Virus record (IMG/VR): IMGVR_UViG_3300025383_000018
Location: 19,776 to 83,775 of that record
Origin: a virus
Length of the DNA: 64,000 bases
Reading direction: 5' to 3' (one strand)
Made by a program: the position numbers and the translations under genes. Below are positions 7,218-64,000 of the stretch, piece after piece. The notes beneath the pieces are model-generated. The model did no database searches. It saw only the letters and a list, made by a program, of their open reading frames with translations, and was not told the DNA's origin. How positions within the stretch are numbered: position 1 is the first letter of the stretch; the number at the start of each line of letters is the position of its first letter.

Positions 7218-8990
7218 TTATGTTATTTCTACTGTACTGTCGTACTCTGTAAATCCGTTGCTTTTTACTACTTTTAGTATATTGTTAACCCTGCTGATCA
7301 GTTCGTCTTTGTGACTTACTAACCAAACACTCTTGTTGGCCTCTCGGCTCATCTTTTTAAGTATTGCTAAACTGTTTTCAACGCCCGAACTGTCCAATCC
7401 ACTATCAATCAACTCGTCGATAAACAACAAGTTAATAGGTTGATATAGACCTTCCCAAACATCTCTAAAGGCCCAGCTCAAACTTAAAATAAGCCTATTG
7501 CGTTCGCCTCTACTGAGATTGTCAAAGTCTAGCTCTCTACCTAATTCTTCAATGCTAACAGTTAAATCGTTTTGGAATTTAACGGTATGTGGTAATCCAA
7601 TACGGTCTAAGTACTGACTTAGGCGTGCATTCAAGTAATTGAGATTCTGATCAATGATCTTTTTACGTATAAAACTGTCTTTGTTTGTCAACAACTTCAA
7701 CAAAAACTCTTGATGTTCTCGAATTTTTGTTAAAGTATTCATTAAATCGTAGCTGACTTCTTGCAGAGCCTGTGTTTTCATATCGTCAATTTGTTCTGCA
7801 AAAGGGTCAGCTTCGCTTTCTTTACTTACAATCTGACTTAATAATGTAGACATACTACTACGATGTTCAAAAGCATCTGCTTCGGTGTTGTAATAAACTT
7901 TAGGTTGTGCACCTAACTCACCCAGGTCTGCCAGTGCTTGAGTATGCTCCATCCATTGTGTGTTGGTAGCCAATGCTTGTAGCGCAGCTTCTTGTAAAGC
8001 ACTACGTTTAGATTCCAACATCTTTTCGTGGCTGTCGTCGTGTAAGTCTTGTCCACAGGCGTGACACTTGTGATCTTCTAAGGCAGCAATATCAGCTCGC
8101 AGTTGATCGATAATTTTGTTTTCACGTTTTTCATCCAGCTCACACCGTTTTATCCAATTGGTTAGTTCGGTAATGGCTTTGCGTTTTGTGTTATAAGCAT
8201 TTAAGGCCTGATGTGCAGTTATCTCTGCTTCGATGTCTAATTTTGCCAGCTCGTCATAAGCCACTTGTAAAGAAGATAAATCGTCGGCTTTTTTCTTTTG
8301 CCACAACGTTTGTCTGCGAACCAATGCATCTATTTGTTCTTTAATACGATTGTTAGCGTCATTTACCGCCTTAAGACGGTATTCTTCTTGCTGGATAGCG
8401 TCTTTTGTTGTTTTATTTTGTTCTTTTAATACTTCTGCACGCTCACTTAGTAGTGTAATACCCAACAATTGTTCGATAATAGCACGTTGATCGTTGGCTT
8501 TCAAGCTCAAAAATGGTTCAGTGTAAGTATTCAAAGCCAAGATATGTTTGAACATATCGTGACTCATAGCAAGCAATCGTTCAATTTCTTGTTGTGTTTC
8601 TCTTGAATCACCTTGACTGTTGTCGTCTTTGCTTTCCTGTTCAGCATCGTTAACATAAAACTTCAGTACATTGGGTTTTCTACCACGCTCAATGCGATAG
8701 CTCTGTCCATTACATTCAAAGTCAATGGTTACCAACATACCTTTGGTATTGGTCTTGTTGATTAAGTTATCTTTTTTAATGTTGGTTAACGCTTGGCCAA
8801 AGAGTGCATAGCTCAGTGCGTTAATGATAGTGGTTTTACCTGTACCATTACGTGCACCACTGTCGTCTCCTCCGAGATCAAGATTCTCTCCCAATACAAG
8901 AGTTAAATCTTCTCTGTCAAAGTTAATGGCCTGTGTAGCATTACCTACACTCATAAAGTTGCGAACTGATAAACTGCGAATTTTAAGCAT
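7218..8990 (-). CDS. 46: Recombination endonuclease subunit gp46 (Rad50-like SMC ATPase)
   Basis: 590 residues, close to T4 gp46 (560). Walker A is GARNGTGKTT (45-54). A long coiled coil spans about 170-440, interrupted by a zinc hook CHAC at about 310. The ABC signature LSRGERNRL is near 490, and Walker B with LLFIDELIDSGLD is near 520. With gp47 it forms the Rad50/Mre11-type nuclease that resects DNA ends for recombination-dependent replication and breaks down host DNA. The start codon lies eight bases after the gp47 stop, so the two are translationally coupled. Confidence 0.95.
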   Translation of the reverse strand: MLKIRSLSVRNFMSVGNATQAINFDREDLTLVLGENLDLGGDDSGARNGTGKTTIINALSYALFGQALTNIKKDNLINKTNTKGMLVTIDFECNGQSYRIERGRKPNVLKFYVNDAEQESKDDNSQGDSRETQQEIERLLAMSHDMFKHILALNTYTEPFLSLKANDQRAIIEQLLGITLLSERAEVLKEQNKTTKDAIQQEEYRLKAVNDANNRIKEQIDALVRRQTLWQKKKADDLSSLQVAYDELAKLDIEAEITAHQALNAYNTKRKAITELTNWIKRCELDEKRENKIIDQLRADIAALEDHKCHACGQDLHDDSHEKMLESKRSALQEAALQALATNTQWMEHTQALADLGELGAQPKVYYNTEADAFEHRSSMSTLLSQIVSKESEADPFAEQIDDMKTQALQEVSYDLMNTLTKIREHQEFLLKLLTNKDSFIRKKIIDQNLNYLNARLSQYLDRIGLPHTVKFQNDLTVSIEELGRELDFDNLSRGERNRLILSLSWAFRDVWEGLYQPINLLFIDELIDSGLDSSGVENSLAILKKMSREANKSVWLVSHKDELISRVNNILKVVKSNGFTEYDSTVEIT

Positions 8991-53113: not shown

Positions 53114-53362
53114 TTATCTTTTTAGTAACCACATCATATGTTCTTTAGCATCGTGCCACCTATATTCCCATATAGGTGATCCGGGACCAGTCCAAGCAGC
53201 ACTACCAACAAATCCTTTTTTAAGCCAAATACGCTTTCGACTTAAATCGCAACGTTGCGGTGTTAGTGCAAAACGTTCTTCCCATTCAGCTCTACGATAA
53301 AAAGCATCGTCTTCGTCAATCCACTGATTCTGGTATCCTACACCCATCATCAGGTGCCCCAC
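53114..53362 (-). CDS. Small hypothetical protein
   Basis: 82 residues, aromatic and charged (RRAEWEERFALTPQRCDLSR, then WEYRWHDAKEHMMWLLKR). It overlaps the queE stop by 13 bases. No family recognised. Confidence 0.5.
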   Translation of the reverse strand: MGHLMMGVGYQNQWIDEDDAFYRRAEWEERFALTPQRCDLSRKRIWLKKGFVGSAAWTGPGSPIWEYRWHDAKEHMMWLLKR

Positions 53363-54198
53363 TCGTTCTTAAACAATGGCACTTGCAATCTATCACTGTA
53401 ACGCCATCCACGCTTCATAGCGGCCAGTGCTACATTCTTTGCGTTTAATGTATAAACACTTTCCACACCACCAACAGGCATTAGATAAATGTGTCCCTTA
53501 AATCCTGCTGAACGAAATGCTCCTACTGCACATTCTGCGTCAGCGATATCTTGTTCAGTTGCAACCACTAATTTAAGGTAAGCAGTACCAACTTGTTCAT
53601 ATTCACATACAACTTCGGGCTTAATAGCATCCTCCCACGATTCTCCACTGGCAGGAAGTTTGGCACTTACACTGAATGTGATTTCTCTATCCCAGTTGGC
53701 AATAGTCCAGTCATCCAAGTAATGTTTGAATTCTGGGGTTAACTTTTGAGTGCCATTGGTTTCAAATGTAATCTCTTTGAGTCCATGCATTTTAGGATGA
53801 TCCAGCAAATCAGGATATTGACGTTGCCAACCTAGCAATGGCTCGCCGCCAGTGATTACAAGATGTTCGTCTTGCCATTCTTTGTAAGGAAGTATATCCA
53901 TAATCGAATTGGCAATTGAATCAGTAGAAAGTAAAGGAGAGAGATGCTTAAAGCGAGGATCCCAACTAGCATAAGAATCACAGCCTGTAGAAACCAAAGG
54001 CAATTCTTTATAATCGTTGTACATTTGCACAACACTTGCAATATCATCTGTTTCATTACTTAGTTCTCCTCTTGGCATTCCAAAGCCAGCGCATTTGAAG
54101 TTACAACCGAATGTACGCAAAAATATAGATGGTACACCCATATAGCGACCTTCTCCCTGCACACTATAAAATAATTCTGAAATTTTAATTTTACTCAT
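53350..54198 (-). CDS. queE: QueE-like 7-carboxy-7-deazaguanine synthase (radical SAM)
   Basis: 282 residues. SVQGEGRYMGVPSIFLRTFG at the start, TGGEPLLGWQ (about 115-124) and FETNGTQKL (about 144-152) are QueE hallmarks. The SAM-cluster motif reads CNFKCAGF: Cys32 and Cys36 are present but the third Cys (position 39) is Phe. An insertion follows with TGCDSYASWD, whose Cys73 may be the third cluster ligand. QueE closes carboxy-tetrahydropterin to CDG. QueD and FolE, encoded nearby on the same strand, supply the two earlier steps. Confidence 0.88.
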   Translation of the reverse strand: MSKIKISELFYSVQGEGRYMGVPSIFLRTFGCNFKCAGFGMPRGELSNETDDIASVVQMYNDYKELPLVSTGCDSYASWDPRFKHLSPLLSTDSIANSIMDILPYKEWQDEHLVITGGEPLLGWQRQYPDLLDHPKMHGLKEITFETNGTQKLTPEFKHYLDDWTIANWDREITFSVSAKLPASGESWEDAIKPEVVCEYEQVGTAYLKLVVATEQDIADAECAVGAFRSAGFKGHIYLMPVGGVESVYTLNAKNVALAAMKRGWRYSDRLQVPLFKNEWGT

Positions 54199-54551: not shown

Positions 54552-54731
54552 TTATTGATTCCAATGTCGAATAACACCTGCTACGATAAAGCAGTTTGTA
54601 ATGATATATGATAACACAATTGCAGTACGAATGCAAGCAATACGGTCAGCTTCTTTGTCCGTATCACCTGCTTTTTCACCTAACGATTTTGCCCAAAGGC
54701 GCCAAACTTGTTTAATGATTTCTTTTACCAT
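54552..54731 (-). CDS. Small membrane protein
   Basis: 59 residues from ATG 54731. The N-terminal half is charged (VWRLWAKSLGEKAGDTDKEA) and the C-terminal half is a single transmembrane helix (IVLSYIITNCFIVAGVI). This pattern, WAKSLGEK followed by DKEAD and a hydrophobic stretch, is repeated in small proteins of T4-like aquatic phages. The role is unknown. The 5' end overlaps the cupin gene by 20 bases. Confidence 0.6.
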   Translation of the reverse strand: MVKEIIKQVWRLWAKSLGEKAGDTDKEADRIACIRTAIVLSYIITNCFIVAGVIRHWNQ

Positions 54732-55053
54732 CAAATACACAGTTGAATAGTAAATTGATGTCGCCGTCGTTGATCACACGATGAAATGCCCCGTCAGGGA
54801 TTAGTACAATATCTCCTGCACTGACTCTAAAGGGCTCATCTGTTTCATCTCCCACAATCATTTGGCCGTGTCCCAAAACAAAAATATAAATTTCTTCTTG
54901 CCCGGGGTGACGATGCCCACGTGTACTCATACCTCTATGTAAATTAGTAGAGCTCAACACAAGGTTTTTTAATGTTTTATTATCTTTGAGTGTATAAGTT
55001 TCGTTATCTTTGATAACTTCTCCGCCCACGTTATTAATATGGTATTTGATCAT
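54712..55053 (-). CDS. Cupin-domain protein
   Basis: 113 residues forming one cupin barrel: motif 1 is TRGHRHPGQEEIYIFVLGHG (about 44-63) and motif 2 is LIPDGAFHRVIN (about 83-94). The His/His/Glu/His set can bind a metal. Small cupins bind sugars or act in sugar-nucleotide metabolism, but the substrate cannot be read here. The start overlaps the queD stop by four bases. Confidence 0.75.
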   Translation of the reverse strand: MIKYHINNVGGEVIKDNETYTLKDNKTLKNLVLSSTNLHRGMSTRGHRHPGQEEIYIFVLGHGQMIVGDETDEPFRVSAGDIVLIPDGAFHRVINDGDINLLFNCVFDGKRNH

Positions 55054-55547
55054 ACAAATAAATCCTCATTCCATTCTCTATGACCTTCTCTGAATGCCAT
55101 ATTAGCTTGTGTTTCTCTTACTTCAACTCTATAGCACCAAAGTCTTTCTGCTTCACCTGGGCCCCACATATCAGGAATGTAAACACTGTTGACATACTTG
55201 TAAAGCATATCAGCCAGTCCCTCGCAACCAAGTTTTGGTAAAATAGTTAGTTTTGCTAACCCCTTTGATTCTAGTAACTTGTATGTTTCCATTTCTGGTT
55301 CATCTTCTGCTACTAGCAGCGTATGATCAAATTGACTCTCTAATATTTTCTTTAGTTCTTTTAAGCCGCCGTAATCGGCAACCCAATTGCGAACATCTAG
55401 TTGGTCAGTACCAAAATAAAATTTCATACTAAAACTGTATCCGTGAATAGTATTGCAATGACTGTCTGCACGCCATTGTCTGTAAGCGCAAGGAAATGCG
55501 TCCACATATTCTTTTGTTGAGGTATATTTGTAAGTTACGGGTGTCAT
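55050..55547 (-). CDS. queD: QueD-like 6-carboxy-tetrahydropterin synthase
   Basis: 165 residues of the T-fold PTPS/QueD family. Zinc ligands would be His30 and His35 of DSHCNTIHGYS and a further His, although the usual HGH is HGY here. The catalytic Cys is probably Cys20 in DAFPCAYR. ADYGGLKELKKILESQFDHT carries the Asp and the Asp-His pair. It makes carboxy-tetrahydropterin from the FolE product for QueE. It has its own upstream promoter-like region. Confidence 0.85.
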   Translation of the reverse strand: MTPVTYKYTSTKEYVDAFPCAYRQWRADSHCNTIHGYSFSMKFYFGTDQLDVRNWVADYGGLKELKKILESQFDHTLLVAEDEPEMETYKLLESKGLAKLTILPKLGCEGLADMLYKYVNSVYIPDMWGPGEAERLWCYRVEVRETQANMAFREGHREWNEDLFV

Positions 55548-55658: not shown

Positions 55659-56111
55659 TTATTTTGCTCTGGCTGAGAGATATTGTTCGTGTTGTATCCA
55701 CCCTTTGCGAGTTAAGAATCCCCATTCGCGTTGTTTTGGGCCAGGCATAAACAATGTCCAAGTTTCTACATTGGCGTCAATTTCGATACGATGATAGCTT
55801 TTGGCACCACAAATTCTAAAACTACCAGGACCACGCCATACTGCTATTTCGCCTATTTTTTGTCCAAGATTATTAAACTGTGGCAACCATTCGTAGTAGC
55901 CGCCTTTAAGGATAAGGGTAGCATAAGGCCAAGGATGATCGTGTACATCATCAGGATCTGATTTAAGAAACCTGTGCACAAATACATTAAAGGGAAACCA
56001 AGTGCGTTCTTTAAGGAATACATAATATCTTTCTAAGTAAGGTTCATCGTCAATTCGGTCCATAATTATTCTTTTACGTCCTAATCTTTCGAGTAACTTT
56101 AGCAAGACCAT
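55659..56111 (-). CDS. Cupin-like conserved phage protein
   Basis: 150 residues. VFVHRFLKSDPDDVHDHPWP, then YATLILKGGYYEWLP and RGPGSFRICGAKSYHRIEID, is a beta-barrel pattern with HDH that resembles cupins. I recall similar proteins in T4-like phages near nucleotide or sugar genes. The substrate is unknown. Confidence 0.65.
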   Translation of the reverse strand: MVLLKLLERLGRKRIIMDRIDDEPYLERYYVFLKERTWFPFNVFVHRFLKSDPDDVHDHPWPYATLILKGGYYEWLPQFNNLGQKIGEIAVWRGPGSFRICGAKSYHRIEIDANVETWTLFMPGPKQREWGFLTRKGWIQHEQYLSARAK

Positions 56112-57218: not shown

Positions 57219-57683
57219 TTAATTGATTTTGTTTTTAATTTTATTATATTCAGTTTCGTTATACGAATAGATTTCATCCAACAATTTTTCTTTTTCTTTT
57301 GAATTATGCCATTCGTTTTCTTTTGCAAAATAAGCTTCTCGATATTTTTTATATACAGAATCAGACATTGATCCGTACTTTTTATTTTGAATGTCTTGAT
57401 AAAGCTCGGTGATGTTTTCTTCAGCTATATCTATTAAAGATTTTGGAGCTTTTAATTTTTCTAAATTCTGTTTGTTATTCAACCATTTATCAAAATTTTC
57501 GTTTAATTCGATTAGCGTTGGTAAAGGTGGATTGTTATAATAGTGGCCCATAAATTTTTTCATGGCATCTTCTAATATACTTTCTCCTCTCTCAGTGAGC
57601 ACATCGTATAATTGTTGATCTAGCAAATATAATTTATAATCTTCGGAATTAGGTCCGACTCCTAAATGGGCTAATGGTCTCAT
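57219..57683 (-). CDS. Hypothetical helical protein
   Basis: 154 residues, mostly charged helices (SLIDIAEENITELYQDIQNK, YKKYREAYFAKENEWHNSKE) with many Lys/Glu/Asn/Tyr. The start overlaps the folE stop by four bases. It is more AT-rich than its neighbours, which might mean a later acquisition. Function not recognised. Confidence 0.5.
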   Translation of the reverse strand: MRPLAHLGVGPNSEDYKLYLLDQQLYDVLTERGESILEDAMKKFMGHYYNNPPLPTLIELNENFDKWLNNKQNLEKLKAPKSLIDIAEENITELYQDIQNKKYGSMSDSVYKKYREAYFAKENEWHNSKEKEKLLDEIYSYNETEYNKIKNKIN

Positions 57684-58420
57684 CTTGGGGCAAAGTCCTG
57701 TTGTAGTTTAATATTATCAAAAAACTCTTTCTTAGTACCAGAGTCATCTTTGAATGCACCTTTAAGCACAGATGTTTGTGTTAAACTACTGTGTGCCATA
57801 ATGCCTCGATTCTCGCAACATCCGTGTGTCATTTGAACATAAACACCAATATCATTTGCACCAGTGGCTCGACCTATTTCTTTAGCAATTTCATTACAAA
57901 GCTCCTCCTGGAGAGTGCCTCGTCTTGCACACCACTGTGCAATTCTGGAATACTTAGATAAGCCAATAAGTTTATTGGCAGCAATAATACCAATATAAGC
58001 CACACCAGCCACAGGTTGGTGATGATGACTGCACATACTACGCAGTTCACTGCGAACAACAAGCATACCTTCGTAACGGTCTTGCGAATCATTTGGGAAC
58101 GCTGTTGCGTCCGGGGCTGGATCATATCTTCCACTCATCACCTCATTAATGTACATTTTTGCCAGTCGTCGAGCAGTACCTTTACTACTAGGATCGGTAT
58201 CTGTGTCGATCAGTAAAGTTTTCAGTACTTGCTCAAATGCTTCAGTTGCTTCTTCTATTAGGCGTTCTTTATCATCTTCGCTTAGATATTCACTAATGTT
58301 ATCGTTAGCCCAAAAGCGTTTGCCTTCTCGTTTCATCTTAAAACGAAGAACATCTGCTAAACTAGATTCTTCATAGCCGCCTTCGTCTATGTTGTCGTAT
58401 GATACTGGTTTTAATTTCAT
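57680..58420 (-). CDS. folE: GTP cyclohydrolase I
   Basis: 246 residues. The zinc site uses Cys130 and His133 in MCSHHHQPV and Cys201 (or 202) in THGCCENRG, in the positions of E. coli Cys110, His113 and Cys181. Between them LIGLSKYSRIAQWCARRGTL is the family's conserved helix region. It opens GTP to dihydroneopterin triphosphate, the first step of the 7-deazaguanine pathway. With QueD and QueE it yields CDG. SD AGGA is upstream. Confidence 0.93.
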   Translation of the reverse strand: MKLKPVSYDNIDEGGYEESSLADVLRFKMKREGKRFWANDNISEYLSEDDKERLIEEATEAFEQVLKTLLIDTDTDPSSKGTARRLAKMYINEVMSGRYDPAPDATAFPNDSQDRYEGMLVVRSELRSMCSHHHQPVAGVAYIGIIAANKLIGLSKYSRIAQWCARRGTLQEELCNEIAKEIGRATGANDIGVYVQMTHGCCENRGIMAHSSLTQTSVLKGAFKDDSGTKKEFFDNIKLQQDFAPR

Positions 58421-58440: not shown

Positions 58441-59511
58441 TTATAACTTATTTAGAAAATTATTGCAACTGAAAAAGTTTTCAATTAGCGCAACAGTTTG
58501 TTGTTTTAATTTGGGCAAAAAGTGGGGATAGTTATCCATATATTGGATAATCTTCTCACAAAGTTCTGGACAATGCGCTTCGTATGCTTCGAAACTTTCT
58601 GTCCATTCGCTTGGGTATTTGAATGTATCGTAATACATTTCACTATAGCTAAGTCTATCTGGAACCATAGGGATAGCATCTACTAGCGAACCTTCGTAGC
58701 AACCAATTCCCAGTGTTTCTTGTAAACTACAACTAAAAACCAATTTGGATTCGCCCAATAATCGATGATATTGATCTTTGGTTAACTGTTGATCCTGACA
58801 TACCACAAACTCGTATTGTGGCAAGTGAGTGGCCAAATCTCTAAAAATTTCCACTTGCTTCTCGGGAGCAATACGATGTGGAAACAGTACAAGATCTCGC
58901 TTGGTCATATTTTTATATGCAGACAATGTATCGTCCATATACTCCATCGGCCAACCTGTGCGAACAATTTTTCCAATCTCTTTGAAACCTTCAATTGTTT
59001 GCGGCATTACGATATGTAATAGATTTTTACAAAACATATCGATGTGAAAGTCTGTGGCAAAGTAGTTGTGATCAAACGCTTCAAAGAAACTTTTTTCAGC
59101 AAATCTAACCCAAGGTTTATCTCCGACTAATCGTCCTAAAAAGTCTTGAGGATCATAACTGCCAGCGTGCCAAAGTCCGTGTGTAGTTACTGGGATTCCC
59201 AACAACTCACTCATATACTTTAGGTTTATGATACCAGGATGCCAGGCATCAGTAAAGATAAAATGATCGCCAGCCTGGACGGCTCCTGTACAAAAAAGTC
59301 TTCCAAGTTGTTCAACTTGGCTTGCCTTATAGATATTAGTGCCCCCAAAATTGAGAAATGCACCAGGAGTAGTGGCGCTAGGAATATCTCTAGGGCCCGA
59401 TATAATCGTGACATTGTGTCCTGCCTTTGTAAGTAAATCAGGTATATGAGTCTTCCATTGACCCGTATACCTTGTTTCTACCGCTTCTAAATCAACTAAG
59501 AAGATGGTCAT
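58441..59511 (-). CDS. Glycosyltransferase (GT-B fold, family 4-like)
   Basis: 356 residues. The N-terminus (TIFLVDLEAVETRYTGQWKT, LLTKAGHNVTIISGP) is a GT-B donor-free domain. In the C-terminal half LVLFPHRIAPEKQVEIFRDL corresponds to the usual NRL.PEK start, and LQETLGIGCYEGSLVDAIPM is the EX7E-type nucleotide-sugar binding motif (about 264-283). The sugar donor and acceptor are unknown. In T4-like phages such enzymes may glucosylate modified DNA bases or act on the host envelope. It lies just upstream of folE in the operon. Confidence 0.78.
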   Translation of the reverse strand: MTIFLVDLEAVETRYTGQWKTHIPDLLTKAGHNVTIISGPRDIPSATTPGAFLNFGGTNIYKASQVEQLGRLFCTGAVQAGDHFIFTDAWHPGIINLKYMSELLGIPVTTHGLWHAGSYDPQDFLGRLVGDKPWVRFAEKSFFEAFDHNYFATDFHIDMFCKNLLHIVMPQTIEGFKEIGKIVRTGWPMEYMDDTLSAYKNMTKRDLVLFPHRIAPEKQVEIFRDLATHLPQYEFVVCQDQQLTKDQYHRLLGESKLVFSCSLQETLGIGCYEGSLVDAIPMVPDRLSYSEMYYDTFKYPSEWTESFEAYEAHCPELCEKIIQYMDNYPHFLPKLKQQTVALIENFFSCNNFLNKL

Positions 59512-59512
59512 A

Positions 59513-59722
59513 TTATCTCTGATTGTTGTACTCTGCTTGTTTATTCATATAGTGCCTGTAACGCTCGTACTTGCGATATTGGTCACTGCGATATAAATCT
59601 TTCTCATCGTACTTCAACATATTCATTCTACAAAAATCTTTGTAGCCTTCCAAGTCATCAAACAGTCTATCGACTTCGGGTTTCATTCTTAGATATTTTT
59701 CAAGCCATTTTGGTTGTGACAT
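59513..59722 (-). CDS. Small conserved phage protein
   Basis: 69 residues, charged and aromatic (PKWLEKYLRMKPEVDRLFDD, then FCRMNMLKYDEKDLYRSDQY). I recall short proteins with WLEKYLRMKPEV in T4-like aquatic phages. The function is unknown. It is one base from the glycosyltransferase start. Confidence 0.65.
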   Translation of the reverse strand: MSQPKWLEKYLRMKPEVDRLFDDLEGYKDFCRMNMLKYDEKDLYRSDQYRKYERYRHYMNKQAEYNNQR

Positions 59723-59737
59723 TTGTTTTCCTTATTA

Positions 59738-60184
59738 TTAAATAACAACTGATAAATCGGGTCTTGTGGTATTGTATTTGATTACCGCACCATTTTCGCC
59801 GTCTTCGCTAACTTCGATCCAAACTGTACGGTTAGGATACTTAGCAGCGATCTGTAAGTAAAGATCATCACTGATCATTTCGCAACTTTTATAATCTAAT
59901 TCCAATGTACCATTAGAGTATAAGTGTTCTAACCAGCGTTTGAACTGTATAAATTCAATATCGCGGTCATTATGAGTAACACTAATATAGACTCTGAAGT
60001 GGAAAATGTGACGATGCGGAGTGCCAAGAAAACTAACATCATACATATCTCCTGTAGCCAACATTGGATCTGTGGCAGCTGCTGGATAGCAGTGAATGCC
60101 TTCCTTTTGGAATGTAACTGAGATCATACGATCTGCAGCCGCCATAATTCTATCTATTTGTGCACGTTGATCTTGATTAATCAT
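59738..60184 (-). CDS. Conserved protein, possibly T-fold (QueD/QueF-like)
   Basis: 148 residues. LGTPHRHIFHFRVYISVTHN, then DIEFIQFKRWLEHLY, ELDYKSCEMISDDLYLQIAA and RTVWIEVSEDGENGA follow the order of elements in T-fold pterin/deazaguanine enzymes: His-rich strand, Asp/Glu helix, LD-x-x-S/C...Cys region and a closing strand with Glu. This match is by eye only. If right, it could be another deazaguanine-pathway enzyme. Otherwise it is an uncharacterised family conserved in T4-like phages. The start overlaps the next gene's stop by four bases. Confidence 0.55.
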   Translation of the reverse strand: MINQDQRAQIDRIMAAADRMISVTFQKEGIHCYPAAATDPMLATGDMYDVSFLGTPHRHIFHFRVYISVTHNDRDIEFIQFKRWLEHLYSNGTLELDYKSCEMISDDLYLQIAAKYPNRTVWIEVSEDGENGAVIKYNTTRPDLSVVI

Positions 60185-60780
60185 TTCTTTTTTGCCTTAA
60201 TTTTAGGTGGTTGTATAATATCTTCGAATTCAACTTTGGCAGGCACACCCACTGGTGTATCACCAACATACTCACGCCAGTCTGTGTAGACGTTTCTGGT
60301 TAGCAGTTCGTTTAAGGGATGGCACCAAACACCGGGGTTTGTATCTCCCCAAGTGTTGTCGTCGATCTTTAGTGTAGCATTATAGTTATAGAGCTTGATA
60401 TAGGGAATCTTAACACTGATCATAGGGATGAATGTGTTGTATTCGCACCAACCGTTCTCGTGTAGTTCTCGAGCATATTCAACACCAAAGTCTAAAGTCA
60501 CCCAGTAGTCTTTGATCAACAAAGGTTTGATCATATCATCCCACGCAGCCCATTCGTATGCGTTCTCGGGATGGAAACTTTGGCTTGTACCAAAGTAAAT
60601 ATTTTTGATATGATTTTTTGGATTAGGATCTTTTAATGACTCATTGACAATTGCAATGATGTCTTCTACTGGTTGAATGCCTACTACAAATAATGTAGTT
60701 TCATTCTTCATTGGGGTGTTTTCTACTTCTGTACCTACAAAGTAGGTAATCATCTTACGGCTATCTGTATCGAGTGCCAT
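60181..60780 (-). CDS. Conserved hypothetical protein in the deazaguanine/sugar cluster
   Basis: 199 residues. ITYFVGTEVENTPMKNETTL, FVVGIQPVEDIIAIVN and IYFGTSQSFHPENAYEWAAW are the strongest segments, suggesting an alpha/beta fold with a central sheet. I remember similar proteins from T4-like aquatic phages near queuosine genes. I cannot assign an activity. It sits between the possible T-fold protein and the alcohol dehydrogenase with one-base or four-base spacing. Confidence 0.6.
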   Translation of the reverse strand: MALDTDSRKMITYFVGTEVENTPMKNETTLFVVGIQPVEDIIAIVNESLKDPNPKNHIKNIYFGTSQSFHPENAYEWAAWDDMIKPLLIKDYWVTLDFGVEYARELHENGWCEYNTFIPMISVKIPYIKLYNYNATLKIDDNTWGDTNPGVWCHPLNELLTRNVYTDWREYVGDTPVGVPAKVEFEDIIQPPKIKAKKK

Positions 60781-60781
60781 A

Positions 60782-61732
60782 TTACTTCCAATAAATGTAG
60801 CCCCTTGAATAATTCTCAGGGCGGGTTAATGAATCTCTGAATGCATTTTGCCACTCAGTGTCTCTATTATAGCCTTTAGTCCAGAAACTGTCAACGACTA
60901 AATCGCCCATTTCTATCCAATATGCTGCATCTTCCATACACTGAATAAACCTTTTGGTCCTTGGACTTGGGAATATAACAGTACAGGCTTTCCACAACAC
61001 ATTGGAGAAATCAGTTGTAAGCATTTTTTGTGCACCAAACACAATCAATGCTTCGGCATTTACCATATCACTTTCGAATACATTGGTATTACCACTTAGA
61101 TCAATTACCACATCGTAAGTGCCTTCGGCAGTATCTTTAAGTACACTACTCCACTGCTCTTTATTGCTATGACCAACTTTGGCGTCATCTTTGAGTGCAC
61201 TACCCCAAAGATCTTTATTGCTATGACCGACTACAGTTATATCAAAGTCTAAATGCAATAATTTAATAGTGTTATACGCAACCCACGCAAGGAATCCGCT
61301 ACCTAATATTACCAATCGTTTACCCGGGCCACTGCGTTCTGCTATTTCCCTAATAGGTTGTTGTATAATATTAATACCACAGGCCACAGGTTCTAATATG
61401 TATTTAGGTTCTGCTGATGGCACACGCACAAATTCGTTAATTCGAACATTATAAGAATCAGCATAAGCCGGCTCACCGCGTGTGGCAACATAATCGCCAA
61501 TTTTAATGTCGTAGATACCTTTGCCCACTGCAGTGACTTGACCAAGGCCTTCGTGTCCACTCATATTCAAAGGTAGCGGACCAAAACTGCCCGTCATCAT
61601 ATCCACATCACTGCGACATACCCCGGTTAACACTGATCGAACTTCGATTTCGTATTCGCCCACTGGAGGTTTATCGTATACGGTTTCTGCAAATTCACCT
61701 TGTCCGTTGGTATATAAAATTCTGTTGGTCAT
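60782..61732 (-). CDS. Zinc-type (medium-chain) alcohol dehydrogenase
   Basis: 316 residues from ATG 61732, in an ATGA overlap with the oxidoreductase stop. A longer frame opening at 61759 is less likely. Catalytic zinc ligands: Cys39 in TGVCRSDVD and His60-Glu61 in SGHEGLGQV. Later comes EPVACGINI. NAD(P)-binding LVILGSGFLAWVAYN follows. The family's structural-zinc lobe is missing. A tandem 18-residue duplication (about 176-211) lies in the cofactor domain. The substrate is probably a sugar or sugar alcohol, judged only from the neighbouring Gfo/Idh enzyme and the glycosyltransferase. Confidence 0.82.
   Translation of the reverse strand: MTNRILYTNGQGEFAETVYDKPPVGEYEIEVRSVLTGVCRSDVDMMTGSFGPLPLNMSGHEGLGQVTAVGKGIYDIKIGDYVATRGEPAYADSYNVRINEFVRVPSAEPKYILEPVACGINIIQQPIREIAERSGPGKRLVILGSGFLAWVAYNTIKLLHLDFDITVVGHSNKDLWGSALKDDAKVGHSNKEQWSSVLKDTAEGTYDVVIDLSGNTNVFESDMVNAEALIVFGAQKMLTTDFSNVLWKACTVIFPSPRTKRFIQCMEDAAYWIEMGDLVVDSFWTKGYNRDTEWQNAFRDSLTRPENYSRGYIYWK
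61124..61231 (-). repeat. 54-bp tandem duplication inside the dehydrogenase gene
   Basis: Two adjacent in-frame units, 61178-61231 and 61124-61177, encode VGHSNK(D/E)(L/Q)W(G/S)S(A/V)LKD(D/T)A(K/E). The first 20 bases of each unit differ at one base, so the duplication is recent. Confidence 0.8.
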
Positions 61733-62601
61733 AGATTTTCTATTTGTTCGTGAATCCAAGTATCAATTTCAAACTGATCTAACCAGAATTGATGATTATT
61801 AATATTAGCGACTGCATCTTTAATCATTGCAGTATACGCATCTTCAGGGCACCAACCTAATTCCACATTGGTGTTTGTATTAGCAATAAAATCGATTGAG
61901 CTGTTGTCCTCTTCGAGCGTACGCCAATCTGCAACCAAAGCCCATTTATCGCCAAAGTTAATAGTACAACGGTCGTCTACATCATAAGTTCCACTGTAGT
62001 TAACTGTGCCGTACTCTGTACTTTCGATATCTGCTAGTTTCCAATTTGTAACTGCATTTCTGTTGGTTGCAGACACTTTACGCCAATTGGGATTTAGAGC
62101 AATGTATATGCTTAACAAATGTGGCATCAAGTCTCGACTAACACCACCAAATGCTAATCGTTTTGTAGTAAACCAACTGCCAGGATTAGGGATACAATTA
62201 TGCCTAAGCCATTGTATCTTTACTGTATCAGATTGGCTGGCCAACGATTGTAACTCGGCAATATTACTGCGCCACATATTGTTCTTGACCATCATAAAAC
62301 GTGTTTTCTTAAACACAGTTACCAAATTAGTCCAACTGAAACTATTTGATACTCCGGGTTTTTCGATGAATACAATTTTACTGTAGGGTGCAACCTTTGC
62401 GGCCAATTCAAAATGTGTATGATTTGGTGTGCAAACAAATGTAATATCAAAAGGTGCGTGTGCTATTACTGCAGAATCTACTGTAGGTAAGTCTGCACCT
62501 TTTGCAATATTGGAGTCTACAGTTATTACTTCATAACCGAGATTGGTTAAAACAGTTTTGTACAACTGTCCTATACCTAAGCCAACAACAAGTGCTTTCA
62601 T
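61729..62601 (-). CDS. Gfo/Idh/MocA-family oxidoreductase
   Basis: 290 residues. The N-terminal Rossmann fold begins MKALVVGLGIGQLYKTVLTN, with FVCTPNHTHFELAAK (about 54-68) and the family's EKP motif in IVFIEKPGVS (about 78-87). The C-terminal sheet domain holds GGVSRDLMPHLLS, in the place of the family's catalytic DxxxH. It oxidises or reduces a sugar or inositol-like compound with NAD(P). The alcohol dehydrogenase overlaps it downstream, so they probably act in one pathway. Confidence 0.82.
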   Translation of the reverse strand: MKALVVGLGIGQLYKTVLTNLGYEVITVDSNIAKGADLPTVDSAVIAHAPFDITFVCTPNHTHFELAAKVAPYSKIVFIEKPGVSNSFSWTNLVTVFKKTRFMMVKNNMWRSNIAELQSLASQSDTVKIQWLRHNCIPNPGSWFTTKRLAFGGVSRDLMPHLLSIYIALNPNWRKVSATNRNAVTNWKLADIESTEYGTVNYSGTYDVDDRCTINFGDKWALVADWRTLEEDNSSIDFIANTNTNVELGWCPEDAYTAMIKDAVANINNHQFWLDQFEIDTWIHEQIENL

Positions 62602-62807
62602 TTATGATTGGGATCCATTGCAGGGTCTTGCTTGGCGTCTTCGGTAGTCACAAATCTTGGTGCAACACCCCACGCACTGAACCAACCCAATGGTTTCCAA
62701 TACTTATGTAACAAATTGTTAATTAAGATAATAAACATAATTGCCAAAACTACTGCACATCCGCTAAGTATGGTCATCGCCAAAATGTTAGTTGCATTTT
62801 CTACCAT
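62598..62807 (-). CDS. Small membrane protein
   Basis: 69 residues. A single transmembrane helix (LSGCAVVLAIMFIILI, about 14-30) is followed by a positively charged loop (LLHKYWKPLGWF) and a polar tail with RFVTTEDAKQDPAMDPNHK. The KYWKPL motif after a membrane helix is frequent in small proteins of T4-like aquatic phages. It overlaps both neighbours by a few bases. Confidence 0.6.
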   Translation of the reverse strand: MVENATNILAMTILSGCAVVLAIMFIILINNLLHKYWKPLGWFSAWGVAPRFVTTEDAKQDPAMDPNHK

Positions 62808-64000
62808 TATAAAGTCTCCAATTCTATAAGTTTCGTTTCATCTAATCCGCTGTTATCTCTTGTATTATACACATCATCTGAATTATCGTCAACAGTACTA
62901 AACAATTGATTGAACATAGTGTTGCTATTTTGCGTATTTTCACCGGTATAACCACGAGTTCCAGGAATGGCTTTCCAATATTTGTTATAGTGTTCGATTA
63001 GTTCTTCTGCACGACCACGATCACTGGTTTCAAATATAGCGTCAACAATGTCTCTGAAAAAATGGCGATCATACTGTTGGAATTTTTTGCCATTCATTTT
63101 ACTGGCTACCAACATATTTGGATAACTACCACTGTCGTATGCTCTATTGGCACGTTGAACTGCTTCGATATGTGTCCAAACATTATGACCCATTTGAATG
63201 GCATAGCTGAAACTATCCCAAGAAGTTTTACCTTCTTTACCAATCTTATTTAGATCACCGGGTTTGTATATACAAACATCTTTGATTAGTGTTCTAAGAC
63301 TAACTGGGCTTTCTACAAAAGTATCAAATATTCGGTCTTGCAATAGTGCATCACCAAACTGCCTTGTGTCTGTAGCATACTTTTTATTATCAACGCTGGG
63401 TTGCATTTGATAGCTCCACTTGCCACGATCCGGAGTAGTGATATCATAGTAGATCTGTCCGTTGGCAGTTGCCAAGAATGGACTTGCACAGTCAAAGCTG
63501 ATGGTAAATTGGCTGTTATGATATTTGCGAACAGCACGTTGAATATCAGTTAACAACGTGGCCCACTCGAGTTTACTGGTGCCCAAGAAGTGCATCCAAT
63601 CGTGTAGACCTTTTTCTAACAGGCCATCAAAGCGCAGTGCAACCAATCTTCTAAGTGTAAGATGTATGTCACACATATTCTGTCCACCCATAGCCCATCC
63701 TTCAAACGGACGGTTGTATTGTTTGGGATCGCAGAACTTTTTAACACGTTCATACCAATCATCTGCTTGAGTGTGATCCTCGCCTTGTAGCACATTCAAG
63801 AACTTGCAACGACCTGTACGATTGTTCATAAAGTATTCGTTGTTGATGTAGGTAGCATCAACTGCATCTTGATATGAGTAAATGCCAGTGGCCTTTTGGC
63901 CTGCAGGACTACGGGCTACCCACGCTGGAATATCCAGGGTCATACCGCGATCCATATAAGCATCCATCCAGCTTAACACTTGACTACGTTTCTTCATAGC
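62807..64000 (-). CDS. Tgt/DpdA-like DNA guanine transglycosylase (5' partial)
   Basis: The frame is open to the right edge. An internal ATG at 63997 gives 396 residues, so the true start may lie outside. The order of motifs follows tRNA-guanine transglycosylase: FLNVLQGEDHTQADDWYERV (about 66-85, Tgt IVQGG), EGWAMGGQ (about 99-106, GYAIGGL), HFLGTSKLEWATLL (136-149, YLMGVG) and TISFDCASPF (165-174, MFDCVxPTR, with Asp169). The CxCxxC zinc site of bacterial Tgt is missing. Phage relatives (DpdA) put a 7-deazaguanine into DNA. With FolE, QueD and QueE on the same strand that is the likely role. Confidence 0.75.
   Translation of the reverse strand, partial: AMKKRSQVLSWMDAYMDRGMTLDIPAWVARSPAGQKATGIYSYQDAVDATYINNEYFMNNRTGRCKFLNVLQGEDHTQADDWYERVKKFCDPKQYNRPFEGWAMGGQNMCDIHLTLRRLVALRFDGLLEKGLHDWMHFLGTSKLEWATLLTDIQRAVRKYHNSQFTISFDCASPFLATANGQIYYDITTPDRGKWSYQMQPSVDNKKYATDTRQFGDALLQDRIFDTFVESPVSLRTLIKDVCIYKPGDLNKIGKEGKTSWDSFSYAIQMGHNVWTHIEAVQRANRAYDSGSYPNMLVASKMNGKKFQQYDRHFFRDIVDAIFETSDRGRAEELIEHYNKYWKAIPGTRGYTGENTQNSNTMFNQLFSTVDDNSDDVYNTRDNSGLDETKLIELETL

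Follow-up and report, generated by a model that had tools for sequence, protein, structure and literature searches.

Phage DNA is known to carry sugars on pyrimidines. In T4-type DNA glucosylation, the enzymes alpha-GT and beta-GT put a sugar on 5-hydroxymethylcytosine (PMC13216743, accessible part of the text). Among phages with 7-deazaguanine DNA modification, nt-1 has DNA that contains dPreQ0, and PSI-BLAST searches started from the DpdA of phage 9g miss the nt-1 DpdA2 (PMC6884629, accessible part). In tRNA, QTMAN transfers mannose to queuosine, a 7-deazaguanine (PMC12518689, accessible part). Here we describe a gene island at the end of a 64,000-base stretch of viral DNA (the window), which makes up the final part of the 83,775-base IMG/VR virus record IMGVR_UViG_3300025383_000018. 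The record is a fragment of a tailed phage with portal and baseplate genes, and megablast with the window found no near phage. The island unites deazaguanine genes, a DpdA-type transglycosylase, a glycosyltransferase (GT) related to QTMAN and two oxidoreductases, and it probably serves post-replicative DNA hypermodification, in which a sugar would be placed on a DNA 7-deazaguanine and then tailored by the oxidoreductases.

A minus-strand island of deazaguanine and sugar enzymes

In order of transcription, from the record end to QueE, the features of the island are:

62807..64000, minus strand: TGT-fold, DpdA-type transglycosylase (P396), its 5' end cut by the record end (predicted structure, profile and motifs)
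62598..62807, minus strand: open reading frame (ORF) of 69 aa, function unassigned (ORF call)
61729..62601, minus strand: Gfo/Idh/MocA oxidoreductase, 290 aa (Pfam GFO_IDH_MocA, E 5.6e-7, above cut-off; EKP and D...H motifs)
60782..61759, minus strand: zinc-type MDR alcohol dehydrogenase, 325 aa, TTG start (Pfam ADH_N, E 1.1e-9, above cut-off)
60181..60780, minus strand: P199, conserved island protein (linkage count)
59738..60184, minus strand: P148, conserved GT partner (PHROG 17812, E 2.5e-36)
59513..59722, minus strand: P69, small conserved protein (linkage count)
58441..59511, minus strand: QTMAN-related, GT4-type GT, 356 aa (alignment A2 and HHalign)
57680..58420, minus strand: FolE, GTP cyclohydrolase I (Pfam, E 8.9e-38)
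55659..56111, minus strand: cysteine-dioxygenase-like protein, island partner (PHROG 4786)
55050..55547, minus strand: QueD-like protein (PF01242, above cut-off in its own record)
54712..55053, minus strand: small cupin (Pfam Cupin_2, E 6.4e-12)
53350..54198, minus strand: QueE-like radical SAM enzyme (PHROG 2076, E 1.1e-50)

Small unassigned genes follow FolE, a MazG-like gene stands between the cupin and QueE, a 5'-3' exonuclease gene comes after QueE, and a 2-oxoglutarate oxygenase-like protein is also encoded among the neighbours. Several neighbouring genes share or adjoin their ends by 1 to 31 bases, the largest overlap (31 bp) being that of the alcohol dehydrogenase gene with the Gfo/Idh gene, an arrangement that fits a single transcription unit. 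The sequence-only reading of this region had recognised the GT, the Gfo/Idh protein and the alcohol dehydrogenase, and their ORFs form a single minus-strand run exactly where it had put them, with Pfam bearing out the two oxidoreductases and relatives bearing out the GT. It was also right that several proteins without assignment (P69, P148, P199 and the 69-aa ORF) stand between or beside the sugar enzymes and that deazaguanine genes adjoin them, FolE, QueD and QueE being recognised by Pfam or PHROG. The key upstream gene, the TGT/DpdA-like one at 62807-64000, had been left uncounted.

The region past the window end can be seen in an identical stretch of another contig (L086), where the order is an 892-aa DNA polymerase-like protein, a sliding-clamp-like protein and a complete 521-aa TGT-like protein (7388-8953), the first two named by resemblance to the annotated gene order of phage PAC2. 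Replication genes flank the island, the DNA polymerase upstream in L086 and the exonuclease downstream. Tail fibre genes lie 17 kb from the block on the opposite strand, and no tRNA gene was found in the window. A 366-aa protein encoded upstream of the polymerase (L086:2222-3322) has no Pfam or NCBIfam match. BLAST copies of the 69-aa ORF occur in 6 loci only and those of the small cupin in 4 loci only, all of them 100% identical.

The glycosyltransferase and its DpdA-type partner

Taken alone, the window GT has no significant match in Pfam, NCBIfam or the PDB, and the best PDB hit of its family profile is WlaC at E 0.25. The GT label is nevertheless sound because family members match Glycos_transf_1 directly: 6 of the 18 members in alignment A2 do so (best E 2.5e-4), as does the more distant GT of Xanthomonas phage X1 (E 4e-53 with the family profile), which reaches Glycos_transf_1 at E 8e-12, above cut-off. 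Residues E265, E273, R213 and K218 are invariant across the 18 members, and the two glutamates fit an E-x7-E pattern present in 78 of 81 family sequences, which we take to be the motif of GT4-type retaining glycosyltransferases. The observation is not due to chance, since among at least 599 matching stretches the top 80 viral loci encode the GT with 75-100% identity; clustering of the 185 longer GTs from our scans gave 124 groups at a threshold of 95% identity and 35 at 80%.

By profile comparison, the GT is a relative of the queuosine mannosyltransferase (QTMAN) family. We compared the GT family profile (81 sequences) by HHalign with five bacterial proteins carrying the Pfam domain QTMAN_N, such proteins being present in 5 of the 61 genomes searched. 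All five scored 64-94 (probability 95 to 98%), compared with at most 33 (19%) for 30 GT4 controls from eight genomes; among 13 further controls the best was a Shimia GT (45.3, 78%). In the reverse test, a QTMAN profile gave 10 GT family members scores of 45.9-80.5. Identity to QTMAN is 22% over 167 aligned columns, and the QTMAN_N domain (PF12038) was matched neither in the window GT nor among the families listed for the 18 members.

P396, the protein of the gene left uncounted earlier, had no family match in a Pfam search, and its profile found nothing real among PDB sequences. Its predicted structure points clearly to a TGT fold: in the AlphaFold model (23 sequences, pLDDT 81.6, pTM 0.83), the top 14 PDB matches returned by Foldseek were all TGT (E 4.7e-6 to 2.8e-4), and VIA-align superposed the model on TGT over 303 residues with Z 18.8 and a root-mean-square deviation of 4.0. 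A DSGG[FYL]Q motif is present in 59 of 60 family sequences and a second, SFD-type aspartate motif in all 60; we take DSGGFQ and the SFD-type motif to be the catalytic aspartate motifs of the TGT superfamily. The CxCxxC zinc motif, presumably a mark of tRNA TGTs, was found in none of the 60.

Within this superfamily, the P396 profile aligned with a DpdA2 profile built from Vibrio phage nt-1 and its relatives in phage X1 and Acidovorax phage ACP17 at a probability of 95.5%, compared with at most 0.6% for eight unrelated control families. The link rests on ACP17, nt-1 and all three combined, the TGT-like protein of X1 on its own reaching 5.1%. Given this relationship and the dPreQ0 in nt-1 DNA, P396 is best read as a DNA transglycosylase of the DpdA2 kind, with DNA as its presumed substrate.

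The deazaguanine genes themselves are consistent with synthesis of 7-carboxy-7-deazaguanine (CDG). QueC was above cut-off in none of 13 related records, several of them possibly fragments, one of which gave a weak match, and in 0 of 1 for the window's own record; the base in use would consequently be CDG or else a nitrile or amine derived from the host. P148 was considered as a second QueD and rejected (HHalign probability 1.5%), a single distant copy reaching PTPS weakly at E 0.017.

Conservation of the island and its oxidoreductases

For linkage in viral contigs, we took the 80 top-ranking stretches out of at least 599, 599 and 474 related ones for the GT, the DpdA-type gene and Gfo/Idh, respectively; the counts therefore apply to the nearer relatives. 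We excluded loci that were too short on the side in question, leaving 36 of 80 for the GT, 43 of 80 for the DpdA-type gene, and 67, 73 and 44 of 80 for Gfo/Idh. Every one of the 36 GT loci with 6 kb on both sides held a DpdA-type gene, P199, P148 and P69 within 6 kb, together with the cysteine-dioxygenase-like gene in 35, FolE in 33 and QueE in 31. Scanning from the DpdA-type gene, we found the GT in 43/43 loci with 4.5 kb downstream (58 of all 80, the other 22 having less than 4.5 kb there) and P199 within 6 kb in 18/18. P199 is thus no less constant across the islands than the DpdA-type gene or the GT; its model reached a pLDDT of 86.0, with no Foldseek match at E 0.001 and, across 24 members, nothing in Pfam beyond a single match at E 0.2.

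Gfo/Idh and alcohol dehydrogenase follow a different pattern. The pair was found within 6 kb in 10/36 GT loci and 5/18 DpdA-type loci; where Gfo/Idh is present and room allows, the alcohol dehydrogenase follows in 67/67 loci, while the DpdA-type gene is present in 73/73 and the GT in 44/44. The sequence-only reading had proposed joint conservation as its test, and the outcome did not refute it: GT and DpdA-type gene stay together, as do the two oxidoreductases, but the pair is near only a minority of GTs. When the presence of Gfo/Idh is mapped on a tree built from 60 DpdA-type proteins, 8 changes are required (7 to 8 in bootstraps, a mean of 14.4 after shuffling), and the label clusters in the clade of the window (13 of 18 rows). 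The two genes are an optional but strictly paired accessory cassette of the island, gained or lost several times.

Motifs in the cassette are mostly intact. The Gfo/Idh EKP motif is kept in 79/80 relatives and the D..PH pair in 80/80, EKP and D...H being, as we assume, the catalytic motifs of the Gfo/Idh/MocA family; catalytic zinc motifs are present in 75/75 full-length relatives of the alcohol dehydrogenase, for which we take the ligands of MDR enzymes to be C, H-E and E. The alcohol dehydrogenase gave partial matches to many alcohol dehydrogenases and none at 1e-15. For Gfo/Idh, the best solved relative of the profile in the PDB is DgpA (E 7e-9), which oxidises the sugar of C- and O-glycosides, i.e., a sugar already joined to its aglycone (PMC11239390, accessible part).

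A third enzyme appears in relatives of the island, a UDP-glucose/GDP-mannose dehydrogenase-like protein of ~275 aa. Its ORF was seen in 15/80 loci of the GT scan, in 7 of them starting at the GT stop codon (L044:11065-11865; relatives L026, L041, L060, L076, L081 and L083), in 4/80 of the DpdA scan and in 61/80 of the Gfo/Idh scan (61/73 with 5.5 kb upstream). The GxCFPxD catalytic motif is present in 15/15, 2/4 and 53/61 of these, respectively. Each of 10 records tested has the middle domain, and the C-terminal UDP-binding domain was recognised in none of the 10. A dehydrogenase without its nucleotide-binding part, together with a Gfo/Idh protein related to a glycoside oxidase, suggests that the sugar may be altered after transfer, on the DNA.

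Named phages carry similar sets. The ACP17 run comprises QueD, FolE, an unannotated protein, the DpdA2-like gp123, GT, P148 and QueE. That of X1 has FolE, three genes, a GT only 24% identical to that of the window, an abutting ORF annotated as queuine tRNA-ribosyltransferase, then P148 and QueE. In Pseudomonas phages of the PA5oct group, a DpdA-type gene, GT, P148 and QueE stand together, with Gfo/Idh, alcohol dehydrogenase and P199 in a second group ~26 kb away.

Beyond viral records, we examined 19 loci from bacterial and archaeal genome records, some of which are surely phage contigs in metagenome bins. A DpdA relative lies beside the GT in 16/19 and P148 is present in 12/19. Directly upstream of the GT, 5/19 (Azospirillum, two Sulfitobacter, Shimia and Pelagibacterium; L119:7492-12318, L118, L120, L110 and L122) encode a membrane protein of the Vut_1 type, which we take to be the family of YhhQ; of two copies tested against Pfam, one was above cut-off and one below. 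YhhQ is a preQ0 transporter (PMC6884629, accessible part). With such a transporter beside GT and DpdA, these bacterial islands would import a deazaguanine, insert it and glycosylate it. A 585-aa protein of unassigned family follows the island in Shimia and the two Sulfitobacter, with a weakly similar one in Azospirillum.

A different row was seen in Xanthomonas phage PhiXhv-12 (L327:4669-8755), where Gat-QueC, a PIG-L deacetylase, a distant QTMAN-like GT (QTMAN profile probability 97%) and Gfo/Idh are consecutive, with acetyltransferase-like and Leu/Phe-tRNA-protein transferase genes upstream. Profiles of DpdA, FolE and QueE had no match in the 51 kb examined. This row is possibly another, different sugar-bearing modification.

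Candidate role and relation to known systems

In the scheme that we infer, from its substrate and sugar transfer to its order of steps, oxidoreductase targets and purpose, FolE, QueD and QueE would make CDG, and P396 would exchange chosen guanines in phage DNA for CDG or a host-derived nitrile or amine base. The GT would then move a sugar from a nucleotide sugar onto the 7-substituent, like QTMAN on tRNA queuosine, and in one branch, which includes the phage of the window, Gfo/Idh and alcohol dehydrogenase would oxidise, epimerise or otherwise reshape it. Such a modification would probably serve to conceal the DNA from restriction and from further defences that target DNA. The sugar acceptor is a guess, because no queuosine-ring gene was recognised and no QueC was above cut-off: it could be a carboxyl, a nitrile or amine made by the host, or else a hydroxyl supplied by the cysteine-dioxygenase-like or 2-oxoglutarate oxygenase-like neighbours. 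A more specific version is possible, though less likely than not: the phage DNA would carry a glycosylated 7-deazaguanine whose attached sugar is oxidised or epimerised by Gfo/Idh, alcohol dehydrogenase and, in relatives, the dehydrogenase lacking its UDP domain, with DNA glycans varying between phages.

Several observations weigh against this scheme. For the transglycosylase, the Pfam TGT family PF01702 matches the P396 type in 0/14 records at E 0.1, two genome relatives reaching it at E 0.026 and 0.11, below cut-off, and phage 9g DpdA was rejected as a relative (profile probability 0.5%). Linkage has exceptions, in that the DpdA-type protein of Phosso (profile E 3.8e-115) is encoded ~170 kb from the GT, and one locus (L124) has GT, FolE, QueE and QueD-like genes with no DpdA found. 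On the QTMAN side, the lowest reverse score, that of Magnetospirillum, is on a par with the top control (45.5), the bacterial QTMAN-domain proteins used are putative enzymes, and no gene was recognised for the queuosine ring, which bears the hydroxyl used by QTMAN. As for sugar tailoring, 26/36 GT loci have no Gfo/Idh-alcohol dehydrogenase pair nearby, and the nucleotide-sugar dehydrogenase is found neither in the window's own record nor in the 7.4 kb upstream in L086. In PAC2, a PA5oct-type jumbo phage (L002:40172-41940), Gfo/Idh lacks EKP and the alcohol dehydrogenase lacks zinc ligands C and H; the two genes are retained together all the same, as though they now encoded proteins without catalytic activity, so the pair is not catalytic everywhere.

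The alternatives differ mainly in where the sugar, or the cassette, would act. The same base glycosylation could be combined with another role for Gfo/Idh and alcohol dehydrogenase, which would prepare the base side chain (e.g., the hydroxyl used by the GT) or a free metabolite. We regard this as unlikely, though it is the strongest of the alternatives: the acceptor hydroxyl has no assigned maker, the cassette adjoins the DpdA-type gene rather than the GT, and it is concentrated in a single DpdA-type clade. Against it, the many GT loci that manage without the pair show that it is not needed for the acceptor, and the main substrates of both families are sugars, polyols or alcohols. Rather less probable is an action of the same enzymes on tRNA, the TGT-like protein placing a deazaguanine in the tRNA of host or phage, where the GT would glycosylate it as QTMAN does in animals. 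The TGT fold and the QTMAN relationship would both suit such a role, each being known on tRNA, and DNA is a substrate by inference; yet the closest phage relatives of P396 are of the DpdA2 type, whose prototype nt-1 has its dPreQ0 in DNA, the CxCxxC motif is missing throughout the family, and the island sits in a replication cluster in a window free of tRNA genes.

The sequence-only reading had offered three destinations for the sugar, namely the modified base, the fibres and the host envelope. Of the three, the modified base is the best supported, by linkage and by the QTMAN relationship, and it is the probable destination. A sugar for tail fibres or capsid, or a change of the host envelope (lipopolysaccharide, capsule), is very improbable: phage GTs often modify virion proteins or the host envelope, which is the sole point in its favour, whereas the block lies between replication genes, far from the fibre genes and on the other strand, a DpdA-type gene is linked in all loci with room, and the genome relatives of the GT mostly stand beside a DpdA relative. 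We give least credence to the idea that unrelated metabolic genes drifted beside the deazaguanine genes. Gfo/Idh does come and go on the DpdA-type tree, but its constant company of alcohol dehydrogenase and DpdA-type gene argues against drift.

If the proposed modification is real, a deazapurine bearing a sugar would add a new chemical class to the known modifications of DNA. It would also account for the GT of PA5oct and other Pseudomonas jumbo phages and of hundreds of contigs from uncultured phages, and it suggests that QTMAN, known from animal tRNA biology, may be part of a wider family of deazaguanine glycosyltransferases. The proposal is directly testable, as the set is carried by X1, ACP17, PAC2 and Phosso, all of them named phage records whose hosts are in culture. 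No glycosylated deazaguanine in DNA was found in the accessible literature on deazaguanine phages, DpdA, PA5oct and QTMAN (including PMC12783734, PMC13390438, PMC13216743 and PMC13282480), most subscription papers and preprints being outside its scope; with this partial coverage, novelty is provisional.

Compared with described systems, the island shares FolE, QueD, QueE and a DpdA2-related transglycosylase with the 7-deazaguanine modification of phages 9g, CAjan and nt-1 (DpdA or DpdA2, FolE, QueD, QueE and QueC), but differs from it in having a GT, optional oxidoreductases and no QueC above cut-off; the accessible part of PMC6884629 does not contain the term 'glyco'. DgpA is the closest solved relative of the Gfo/Idh profile and acts on an aglycone-attached sugar, but the similarity is distant and DgpA is a glycoside-degrading enzyme of gut bacteria. 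T4-type glucosylation likewise puts sugar on a modified phage DNA base, whereas in the island the modified base would be a deazapurine and the enzyme is related to QTMAN, T4's alpha-GT and beta-GT belonging to a different GT group. QTMAN itself, with an N-terminal PF12038 domain and a GT4-type C-terminal half, resembles the phage GT in profile far above other GT4 proteins, although the phage enzyme has no PF12038 match, is partnered by a DpdA-type protein with no queuosine-ring genes seen, and would presumably act on DNA.

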